Assembly: GCF_017410345.1 (NCBI RefSeq)
Contig: NZ_JAFQQZ010000061.1
Coordinates: forward strand, 1 to 57,832
Length of the DNA: 57,832 nucleotides
Direction of reading: 5' to 3'
DNA from: Methanobrevibacter sp.
Lineage (GTDB): Archaea; Methanobacteriota; Methanobacteria; Methanobacteriales; Methanobacteriaceae
Positions 18,363 to 56,435 of the stretch are shown in pieces. Each line of letters starts with the position of its first letter. Positions within the stretch are counted from its first letter, which is position 1. Position numbers and translations under genes: made by a program. The notes beneath the pieces are model-generated. The model searched no databases, had not been told where the DNA came from, and was given only the letters and a program-made list of their open reading frames with translations.

Positions 18363-18581
18363 AAGTGTTTTTTCACTAAAAGCGTTTCAACCAAATCTTA
18401 ATTTAATTTTAAACCACCATTTTTCTTTTTTTCTTTTTTTAAGTTCTATTTTTTAAACTCTAAAATTACATTTAATTCTATTTTTTACGAACAAAATATT
18501 GAAAAATAATTATGAAAATAGCTAAAAATTTTAAAAAAAAGAGTGGATGAAAATTGCGAAAATAAAAAAAAAGTTGAGAAG

Positions 18582-18653
18582 TGGTTCCGACGAGATTCGA
18601 ACTCGTGATCCTCTCGTTGTAAGCGAGATATCATACCCCTAGACCACGGAACC
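18582..18653 (-). tRNA. tRNA-Val (UAC), copy A
   Basis: The minus strand folds as a complete tRNA of 72 nt: acceptor arms GGTTCCG/CGGAACC, anticodon loop CTTACAA (anticodon UAC, valine GUA/GUG) closed by TCTCG/CGAGA, and a T loop TTCGAAT. CCA is not encoded. It is identical to copy B. Confidence 0.97.
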
Positions 18654-18760: not shown

Positions 18761-18766
18761 GACGAG

Positions 18767-18838
18767 TGGTTCCGACGAGATTCGAACTCGTGATCCTCTC
18801 GTTGTAAGCGAGATATCATACCCCTAGACCACGGAACC
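18767..18838 (-). tRNA. tRNA-Val (UAC), copy B
   Basis: The 72-nt sequence is identical to copy A, with anticodon UAC in loop CTTACAA. CCA is not encoded. It lies 113 bases upstream of copy A on the same strand, with the repeated hairpin element in between. Confidence 0.97.
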
Positions 18839-30529: not shown

Positions 30530-31519
30530 ATGTCTAAATCAGCAAAATCCAAAAACACAACCTTGAAAAAGGTGAAAAAGTTAGAAAGACAGGGAAAATA
30601 CCAAAAGGCCTTAAAACTTTGTGATGAATATTTAGACAGTACTGTCGCTGAAGAAAACCTTATTCTATTGAAGATAGATCTCCTTGTGGAATATTACAAC
30701 AACGATGAGTTCATAGGACTCATCAATGAATATAAAATCAAACTCACTAGTTTTCTAGAGGAAGGACAGGAGATAGAGCTTTTAAAAATCTATAATACCC
30801 TTGACAACTATCTTGAACTCAAGACCCAAAACCTGGCAAGTGAAGGAATCGTAAAATCATACCTTGCAGGAGGACTGTTGATAGACAATCTGGAAACCAT
30901 TCTTGTATTGAATGAAATGGTCAAGGACAATTACGAAAGCATAAAAAACGATGCGGAGTTCATTGAAAGCAAGGTTCCCCATGAACTTGAAAACTTTGTG
31001 GAAAACGTTATGAAGACATCCTATCAATATCTGGAGCTTATCCTTGAAAATCCTAAGGAGCAAATAGCCAATTCCAATTTCAATCTAGAGGCAATCAGAG
31101 CCAAATTAAGAAAATTCCTAGAGCCTAAAAAGGAAGAGCCGGAAGACAGTCCAGTTGAAACATCAGCTGAAACTGAAGAAAGCAATGAAGCTCTGGAAGT
31201 GATGGAAGAAACCAACGAAATTTTGGAAGAAATGTCTGAACTTGGAGAAAAAAGTGTAGTTACTCTCTCAGAAATAATCAACCCTGAAGAAGAGGAAGAA
31301 GACATATTGGAAACAACTGATAATACAGAAATCACTAGAAAATACACTATTGAAGAGGAAATCCAAGGCCTTAAGGATATCATATCATACTTGAATGATA
31401 AGAATCAGTTTAAAAAGGCTTTAATATACCAAAGAAGACTTGTCAAATTGGCTAGAGAAGAGAACATTAAAGCCCATGTGGAAACTGACTTGAAGCAAAG
31501 AACACTTTCCGACTTTTAG
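30530..31519 (+). CDS. Hypothetical cytoplasmic protein, TPR-like N-terminus with acidic linker
   Basis: The 329-residue protein is not recognised as a named family. Residues about 10-90 look like TPR-type helical pairs (KKVKKLERQGKYQKALKLCDEYL). A helical middle part is followed by a very acidic, Glu/Thr/Ser-rich linker at about 205-270, and the C-terminus repeats a TPR-like unit (LNDKNQFKKALIYQRRLVKLA). There is no signal peptide or membrane segment. ATG with GGTGAT three bases upstream. It precedes argF on the same strand, and another TPR protein follows argF, so it may be a scaffold. The function is unknown. Confidence 0.7.
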   Translation: MSKSAKSKNTTLKKVKKLERQGKYQKALKLCDEYLDSTVAEENLILLKIDLLVEYYNNDEFIGLINEYKIKLTSFLEEGQEIELLKIYNTLDNYLELKTQNLASEGIVKSYLAGGLLIDNLETILVLNEMVKDNYESIKNDAEFIESKVPHELENFVENVMKTSYQYLELILENPKEQIANSNFNLEAIRAKLRKFLEPKKEEPEDSPVETSAETEESNEALEVMEETNEILEEMSELGEKSVVTLSEIINPEEEEEDILETTDNTEITRKYTIEEEIQGLKDIISYLNDKNQFKKALIYQRRLVKLAREENIKAHVETDLKQRTLSDF

Positions 31520-53094: not shown

Positions 53095-53787
53095 ATGACT
53101 GAAGTTAAGGCTGGTGTTGAATATAAGATCAATATTGATGGAAATTCTTTTCTTTTGGATCAAAAGAAATTCAATCTATTGATTTATATTAATGAAAGCG
53201 GATCCATTACAGAAGCGGCTAAGCGTTCTAAAATTTCTTACAGAACCGCTTTGAACTATATCGACAAAATAGAATCCGCTTTGGATATAGCTATTGTAAG
53301 CACAAAAAAAGGAGGAAGCGGTGGTGGAGGCAGTACCACCCTTACCGAAGAGGGCTTGCAAATATTGAAGGAATGCAAAAAGATCAATGCCATCATGGAA
53401 CTCCACAGGGAAACCAACGAAATCGAAGCGGAAATTCTTGAAGTGGATAAGGCAAAAGGGGTCATGAAAATTCAAATGAATGAATTGACCATAACAATTC
53501 CTTTGAAAAAGGAATATAAAGTTGGAGATCAGATATTGGCTTTAATAAGCTATGACAATATCTTCATAATGTTGGAGCCTCAAACATCCAGCATAAGAAA
53601 TATCTTCAAAGGCAGAGTTACTGAAATGAAGCTTCAGGATGAGATGATTCGTGTTAAAATAGATATTGGCGGAGTGGATATTTTCTCAGACATTACCTTG
53701 TCTGCAGGAAAAGACTTAGATTTGAGTTTGGGAAAAGAAGTTTACATTGGATTCAAGGCATTGTCAATAGCTACTTTAAAATTATAA
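53095..53787 (+). CDS. ModE-type transcriptional regulator (LysR-like HTH plus TOBE domain)
   Basis: The 230-residue protein joins a ModE-type winged helix (about 20-95: KKFNLLIYINESGSITEAAKRSKISYRTALNYIDKIE) with a C-terminal MOP/TOBE-like half (from about 155: IRNIFKGRVTEMKLQDEMIRVKIDIGGVDIFSDIT), as in molybdate- or tungstate-responsive ModE. In methanogens such proteins may govern molybdenum or tungsten uptake and the formylmethanofuran dehydrogenases. The linker holds a GGSGGGG stretch corresponding to the wing. ATG with AAGGGACG upstream. It sits just upstream of a ferredoxin gene. Confidence 0.87.
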   Translation: MTEVKAGVEYKINIDGNSFLLDQKKFNLLIYINESGSITEAAKRSKISYRTALNYIDKIESALDIAIVSTKKGGSGGGGSTTLTEEGLQILKECKKINAIMELHRETNEIEAEILEVDKAKGVMKIQMNELTITIPLKKEYKVGDQILALISYDNIFIMLEPQTSSIRNIFKGRVTEMKLQDEMIRVKIDIGGVDIFSDITLSAGKDLDLSLGKEVYIGFKALSIATLKL

Positions 53788-53893
53788 TCATTTTTTAAAT
53801 GCTTAAAAATAAGATAATCTAATAATTTAGCCTATAGTTTTATATAGATTAAACAAAATAAGATTATTTACAGATTTATTCAATGGTGATATT

Positions 53894-54094
53894 ATTTTAA
53901 AAATTATAGTTGATGAGGACAAATGCACCGCATGTGGAAATTGCAAGGAAATTTGCCCTAAAGGTGGATATATTTGGACAATTGATAAGGTTGCACATGT
54001 ATCAAACCTGGATTATTGTCATGTTTGTACATTATGTGCAATGAAATGCGGTCCAGATGCAATTAAAATTATGAGAAATGCGCCAGATGAATGA
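53894..54094 (+). CDS. 2[4Fe-4S] ferredoxin-like protein with an ATT start
   Basis: This small 66-residue frame is well supported. It has CTACGNCKEICP and CHVCTLCAMKCGP, two full CxxCxxCxxxC cluster motifs, for electron transfer. The frame has no ATG, GTG or TTG between its upstream stop at 53828 and the first cysteine. GGTGAT (53885-53890) is followed by ATT-ATT. The second ATT (53894) lies three bases after GGTGAT, exactly as the ATG does in the mtd and 30530 genes (mtd: GTGATATT then ATG), so ATT is the best start candidate. It could also be a sequencing error or a decaying start. It lies about 107 bp after the ModE-type gene. Confidence 0.8.
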   Translation: MLKIIVDEDKCTACGNCKEICPKGGYIWTIDKVAHVSNLDYCHVCTLCAMKCGPDAIKIMRNAPDE

Positions 54095-54194: not shown

Positions 54195-54773
<579 letters not shown>

Positions 54774-55604: not shown

Positions 55605-56435
55605 TTATTCTGGTTTGCTGATTAAATCAAGTTTGCAACCAACGTTACCTTCTTTCATGTGAGGGGTTCTTAATACAGTGTCGTTGGATTTTTCAATTTC
55701 TCTTGCTTCAGCTGCTAATGCAGCAGCACATGCAGCCATTTCGTGAGCAGCAGCTACTAAAGGAATGAAGTTTTCGAAACCTTTGGTCATGAAACAACCT
55801 TTCATGTCTAAACCTGCTACAGCACCAGCCATTTCGTATGCAGCAATAGCTTTTGCTTTTGCGTATGGGTTTTGGAACTTAGCTGCTTCTACTGCTTTTT
55901 CAGCAGTTACAATGAGTTTAGGTAATTCGATTTCGTTACCTGCTTCTACAGCTTCGATTACACCGTCAATGGTTTTTTGGATTAATCTTAAAGCACCGGT
56001 TTCAGCTAATACCTTAATGATGTCAGCGTTGAAGATAGCCATTTCAGTTGGGTCTAACCATTCTCTTTTTGCACCGATCATTGGGTCAGCCATAACAATA
56101 ATGTAACCTAAACCTTGTTCATCCATTTCGTCTTTCTTACCTTTACCAGGAGCGTCACCGATGATAATAGCAGGAATATCTTCTGCAGATAATAATTCTC
56201 TTGCTTTAGCTGGACCAGGTGCAGCTGGGTTTGGGCTTACGAAAATACAGAAATCTGGGTCGAATTGTTTGAACTTAGGTACAACGTCTTCGACTTGTTC
56301 AGGGTTCATTTTTGCTCCAGATCCAAATACTCTTACGTCGATGTTTGGTCTGTCTGCTCTTTCGTCTAATAATAAATCTAATATTGGTGAAGAACCAATA
56401 TTACCACTTCTTAATATAGCGATTTTAACTACCAT
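55605..56435 (-). CDS. mtd: F420-dependent methylenetetrahydromethanopterin dehydrogenase
   Basis: Mtd reduces methenyl-H4MPT to methylene-H4MPT with F420H2, a central step of methanogenesis from CO2. The 276-residue protein begins MVVKIAILRSGNIGSSP and has FVSPNPAAPGP and the VMADPMIGAKREWLDPTEMA segment, all diagnostic. The ATG at 56435 is chosen because GTGATATT lies directly upstream and the N-terminus then matches the family; the 19-residue upstream extension is not conserved. A hairpin and U-run end the gene. High expression is expected. Confidence 0.98.
   Translation of the reverse strand: MVVKIAILRSGNIGSSPILDLLLDERADRPNIDVRVFGSGAKMNPEQVEDVVPKFKQFDPDFCIFVSPNPAAPGPAKARELLSAEDIPAIIIGDAPGKGKKDEMDEQGLGYIIVMADPMIGAKREWLDPTEMAIFNADIIKVLAETGALRLIQKTIDGVIEAVEAGNEIELPKLIVTAEKAVEAAKFQNPYAKAKAIAAYEMAGAVAGLDMKGCFMTKGFENFIPLVAAAHEMAACAAALAAEAREIEKSNDTVLRTPHMKEGNVGCKLDLISKPE

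Follow-up and report, generated by a model that had tools for sequence, protein, structure and literature searches.

A probable AUU start codon in a ferredoxin gene of Methanobrevibacter and its conservation in Methanobacteriaceae

The classic example of a gene that starts with AUU is the bacterial infC, which encodes initiation factor IF3 and is autoregulated through the fidelity of initiation. Start codons in archaea are mostly annotated by gene finders limited to ATG, GTG, and TTG, which would miss or truncate genes with near-cognate starts of this kind. A survey of start-codon switches in prokaryotes found that AUU is an extremely rare substitute: it had replaced 1 of 61,358 ancestral AUG starts and 1 of 5,080 GUG starts (PMC5622118). 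The archaeal initiation factor aIF1 is reported to destabilize initiation complexes on a non-AUG mRNA (PMC6237735).

Here we describe a 2[4Fe-4S] ferredoxin gene that, judging from its sequence, almost certainly begins at an AUU codon. It lies in a window of 57,832 nucleotides (the whole stretch of DNA that was analysed) from Methanobrevibacter sp., a methanogen of the rumen. As in infC, the AUU stands behind a Shine-Dalgarno sequence at a start position that is conserved, and the near-cognate start has been retained over long evolution. In contrast to infC, the gene is archaeal, its product is a ferredoxin instead of an initiation factor, the trait extends to several genes, and the gene for the fidelity factor aIF1 itself starts with ATG. 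The gene is therefore not a member of the infC type, in which the product is a fidelity factor that judges its own start, although its AUU may be sensitive to the stringency of initiation as that of infC is. And whereas switches to AUU were almost absent from the survey, a single column of this family has AUU, AUA, or AUC in 38 of 104 loci. Near-cognate initiation as a kind is known. Our searches of open-access literature turned up no description of conserved near-cognate starts from Methanobacteria, and their conservation in a ferredoxin gene and in core genes across an archaeal class is apparently new.

An earlier note on this DNA, made from the sequence, had claimed that the ferredoxin frame contains no ATG, GTG, or TTG between the upstream stop at 53828 and the first cluster cysteine. 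Our reading of the frame agrees: the first such codon is an ATG inside the gene, 49 codons downstream of the proposed start (Table 1). The note had placed the gene at 53885-54094. The end of that interval stands, but what begins at 53885 is the Shine-Dalgarno sequence; as the start proper is 53894, the coding sequence is 53894-54094. Its two cluster motifs read CTACGNCKEIC and CHVCTLCAMKC.

Table 1. Coordinates of features in the window and of other open reading frames with proposed near-cognate starts (positions with L numbers lie in stretches sampled for the genome scan)
Feature	Position	Strand	Evidence or remark
ModE-like regulator (HTH + TOBE/Mop), upstream neighbour	53095..53787	+	TIGR00637, E 6e-22; TOBE above cut-off
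Ferredoxin open frame	stop 53828-53830 to TGA 54092-54094	+	frame reading
Candidate archaeal promoter, TATA-box-like	53838..53846	+	read from sequence; leader roughly 25 nt
Overlapping short frame, ATG-GTG-ATA-TTA-TTT-TAA	53883-53900	+	overlaps Shine-Dalgarno sequence
Shine-Dalgarno sequence GGTGAT	53885..53890	+	6-base match to 16S tail complement; kept in orthologs
First ATT	53891-53893	+	directly after GGTGAT
Second ATT, proposed ferredoxin start codon	53894..53896	+	no canonical in-frame start; aligned start column
2[4Fe-4S] ferredoxin coding sequence, 66 aa	53894..54094	+	Fer4 and Fer4_10 above cut-off; two CxxCxxCxxxC motifs
hisB, downstream neighbour	54195..54773	+	IGPD, E 1.7e-60; normal ATG start, outside the near-cognate phenomenon
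PyrG (CTP synthase)	L179:11026	minus	CTG start
PyrB (aspartate carbamoyltransferase)	L183:11880	+	ATA start
ARMT1-like/DUF89 protein	L178:7688	minus	ATT start
NUDIX protein	L174:17260	minus	ATC start; candidate from scan
ABC transporter ATPase	L304:8806	+	ATT start; candidate from scan
Family-2 glycosyltransferase	L303:10982	minus	ATT start; candidate from scan
Adhesin-like protein, signal peptide	L169:18862	minus	ATT start after GAGGTGAAAAA
Adhesin-like protein, signal peptide	L180:323	+	ATT start after GAGGTGAAAAA
ATT candidate, no Pfam family matched	L183:8522	minus	scan

For long open reading frames in 258 kb of this genome, we aligned the 20 nt upstream of the start to the sequence complementary to the 16S tail. 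The modal distance from the end of the Shine-Dalgarno alignment to the start, seen in 49 of 133 cases, was 2 nt, and the second ATT lies at exactly this distance from its six-base match. The earlier note had also pointed out that GGTGAT is followed by two ATT codons and that the second of them is spaced like the ATG of mtd (...GTGATATT-ATG, with the A at 56435 on the minus strand) and of the gene at 30530 (CGGTGATTTT-ATG); both comparisons are correct. Upstream, the TATA-box-like TTTTATATA, or a near copy of it, is present in close relatives (L009-L012 and L014). A scan for sigma-70 promoters gave 6 promoter-like sites as compared to 4.3 expected, a result that carries no information for an archaeon. 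Elsewhere in the window, two neighbouring genes for tRNA-Val(TAC) are found on the minus strand (18581-18653 and 18766-18838).

We then compared the ferredoxin start column across 104 orthologous loci from Methanobacteriaceae. Within the genus, no ortholog has ATG at this column: 11 of the 12 unambiguous orthologs, which include one from a closed 2.94-Mb genome, have ATT, and the other has ATC. (A 13th, L020, could start at ATT or at a downstream TTG.) The ferredoxin of M. olleyae SIG14 is 98% identical to that of the window. Across the family, ATT is found in 33 loci, ATA in 4, and ATC in 1; we refer to these 38 as AUH loci, and they span nine genera (g1, g3, g6, g7, g8, g9, g10, g11, and g13). 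Another 44 loci have ATG (42), GTG (1), or TTG (1) at the same column, which implies that the column is the start position, and the remaining 22, except for L020, have a canonical start one codon earlier or later. By this alignment, ATT is exactly where the relatives have ATG. Of the 38 AUH loci, 32 lack any canonical codon in frame from the upstream stop to the first cluster cysteine, and in six loci (L056, L057, L060, L062, L066, and L019) an in-frame stop immediately precedes the Shine-Dalgarno sequence. The proposal that ATT is the start codon is thus supported by the ortholog column, by the Shine-Dalgarno spacing, and by the lack of a canonical in-frame start. The earlier note had expected a rare case, which underestimated its extent, as non-canonical starts recur in the family, are conserved there, and are also seen in other genes.

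To trace the history of the start codon, we built a tree from ModE and the ferredoxin with the start column left out. On this quick tree (102 labelled rows, some long branches), the AUH or NUG label changes at least 6 times, with five of the changes forced by well supported branches, while shuffled labels average 31 changes. AUH starts have thus been kept over long spans, with a few switches.

Other genes in the genome appear to use near-cognate starts as well. We sampled 849,555 bases of the genome as stretches, with 806 gene-like open reading frames (a first version of the scan covered 544 kb), and searched for non-canonical codons with a Shine-Dalgarno sequence at a spacing of 1-4 and with the next ATG, GTG, or TTG at least 6 codons further on. 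There were 7 matches for ATT, 3 for ATA (two of them weak), 1 for ATC, and 1 for CTG, and 9 for all other non-canonical codons together. These four codons were seen 12 times at starts placed by a Shine-Dalgarno sequence, where triplet frequencies would predict 2.4 (P about 6e-7). The convincing hits, and one further ATT candidate (L183:8522), are given in Table 1. About nine open reading frames in the 850 kb, besides the ferredoxin, open only from a Shine-Dalgarno sequence followed by ATT, ATA, ATC, or CTG, and where Pfam domains were found in the proteins, they begin within residues 3-18. For four of these (pyrG, pyrB, the DUF89 protein, and the adhesin-like proteins), orthologs confirmed the near-cognate start.

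For pyrG, CTG is found in 28 of the 30 loci that were read first (L202-L231), from three families of the order. Within the genus there is no canonical codon within 26 codons downstream, and most loci have a stop five codons upstream. A later reading (L342-L346) found CTG without an alternative in a fourth family of the class (L345). Because a TTG inside the Shine-Dalgarno sequence is a possible alternative in the sister families f2 and f3, the case for CUG is cleanest in f1 and in L345. Elsewhere, pyrG has TTG in one genome of g12 (G114) and ATG or GTG in more distant archaea. For pyrB, all 21 family loci read first (L232-L252) have ATT or ATA, and a few of them also have an upstream TTG, GTG, or ATG; a g12 locus that was read later has ATG, and the outgroups have ATG or TTG nearby. 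The gene for the DUF89 protein has ATT or ATA in all 16 genomes of the genus that were read (L262-L277) and ATG or TTG elsewhere. Finally, the ATT of the adhesin-like genes is kept in at least 6 genomes (L190-L196), and the window's genome has TGA directly 5' of the Shine-Dalgarno sequence.

Could AUU be reached by reinitiation, after translation of modE or of the overlapping short frame, without being a start in its own right? We consider this improbable. A modE gene does lie upstream in 103 of the 104 loci, with a stop as near as 9-23 nt in some AUH species, and a short frame with ATG or GTG spans the Shine-Dalgarno sequence in the window and in some relatives. However, the gap from the modE stop to ATT is 106 nt in the window, and in g11 ATT is retained although the gap reaches 470 and 1,038 nt. 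The full range in AUH loci is 9 to 1,038 nt, so coupling to modE is no general explanation of the AUU start, and the tightest gaps belong mostly to loci that start with ATG. Coupling in archaea is reported to require overlaps or very short distances (PMC10666635), and the ferredoxin start is not accompanied by either in a consistent way. The short frame can be rejected as an explanation, as it is not conserved: it is absent or different in L013, L017, L065, and L069. Furthermore, pyrG, pyrB, and the DUF89 gene have near-cognate starts outside of any such context.

It is very improbable that translation starts at another codon, such as the first ATT, the TTA that follows the second ATT, or, in some species, an upstream GTG or ATG. 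In sister families the ferredoxin starts one column later, at TTG or ATG, so TTA could be a decayed TTG, and six AUH loci (L012, L017, L059, L067, L071, and L103) have another possible start that is canonical. But the first ATT is not fixed in the genus, being replaced by ATC, ACT, or CAA in L013, L015, and L017, while the second is invariant across the genus orthologs apart from the single ATC. Similarly, L138 and L141 have ATA or ATT at the TTA column, which in many loci simply encodes leucine after an ATG, and only the second ATT has the modal Shine-Dalgarno spacing. We therefore rejected both TTA and the first ATT, which are not conserved as starts and are wrongly spaced.

That the frame is a decayed and untranslated copy without a start codon would account for the lack of a canonical start, and gene finders restricted to ATG, GTG, and TTG would overlook the ferredoxin, but we regard this as highly improbable. 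Among 11 close orthologs from the genus, 47 of the 66 codon columns vary, and in 37 of these all the changes are synonymous, which implies that the protein is under selection. The eight cysteines are retained, identity within the genus is 84-98%, the same pattern recurs in nine genera, the genome holds just one close copy, and pyrG, which encodes a central enzyme, has a near-cognate start too. As for a sequencing or assembly error, ATT differs from ATG by a single base and the window comes from a 63-contig draft assembly, but ten further species of the genus (one of them with the closed genome) and eight other genera have the same ATT, and the outcome that the earlier note had tied to such an error, ATG in the genus orthologs, did not appear, so we rejected this explanation as next to impossible.

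We consider it highly likely, from sequence comparisons, that AUU at 53894 is a near-cognate start anchored by its Shine-Dalgarno sequence, conserved in the family, and part of a wider use of such starts in the lineage; the product is probably an electron carrier tied to molybdenum/tungsten-pterin metabolism. GGUGAU would pair with the tail of the 16S rRNA and so place the 30S subunit, and the initiator Met-tRNA(CAU) would pair with AUU at its first two bases and tolerate the mismatch at the third, so that the ferredoxin would begin with methionine. The AUU start, or less often AUA or AUC, would have been conserved through much of Methanobacteriaceae and would be one case of a broader pattern that includes CUG in pyrG, AUU or AUA in pyrB and the DUF89 gene, and AUU in adhesin-like genes.

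An argument against initiation at AUU is that aIF1, which is reported to oppose non-AUG starts (PMC6237735), is present in the genome. The aIF1 gene is found in the genome and begins with ATG, so the near-cognate starts do not stem from loss of the factor, and we rejected a missing or changed aIF1 as an explanation. The C-terminal basic tail of aIF1 varies among families. Because aIF1 is reported to act against non-AUG starts (PMC6237735), AUU would be expected to be a weak start with low or tuned output; it might keep synthesis of the ferredoxin low or tie it to the stringency of initiation. A more speculative idea, which we think unlikely, is that the near-cognate genes of Methanobacteria (the ferredoxin, pyrG, pyrB, DUF89, adhesins, and others) are co-tuned by start-codon stringency. 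This would be an archaeal, multi-gene counterpart of the control of infC by IF3.

At least 32 loci have a ferredoxin frame that offers no start but AUU, AUA, or AUC, and in most of the genus the gene for CTP synthase, which belongs to central metabolism, offers none but CUG. Should these starts be confirmed, near-cognate codons would be acceptable to the archaeal initiation machinery even in core genes, and these genes would offer a natural system for studying the discrimination of start codons by archaeal initiation factors and the possible use of weak starts in control. For rumen methanogens, the N-termini of real enzymes would be corrected, with two genes of nucleotide synthesis (pyrG and pyrB) among the near-cognate set.

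ModE is a molybdate-responsive type of regulator. The ferredoxin gene adjoins modE, and in g12 (20 genomes, G107-G126) neither the ferredoxin, nor the ModE gene, nor a moaA scoring above the cut-off was found, while nearly all of these genomes retain fmdB/fwdB, for the B subunit of formylmethanofuran dehydrogenase. Methanosphaera is not known to synthesize molybdopterin, and g12 resembles Methanosphaera, although to identify it as such would be a guess. The linkage to ModE and the joint absence with molybdopterin synthesis suggest that the ferredoxin is probably an electron carrier for a partner enzyme tied to molybdenum/tungsten-pterin metabolism. Among solved structures, its best sequence matches are the FwdF polyferredoxins of formylmethanofuran dehydrogenase (PDB 9sw6_H and 5t5i_F; 1.7e-15). 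Unlike FwdF, it is a free-standing protein of 66 amino acids that is encoded beside modE and is not a polyferredoxin subunit. The genome also encodes a second ModE-like protein (G000:C3:15450-16136, minus strand), which is 66% identical to the ModE of the window.
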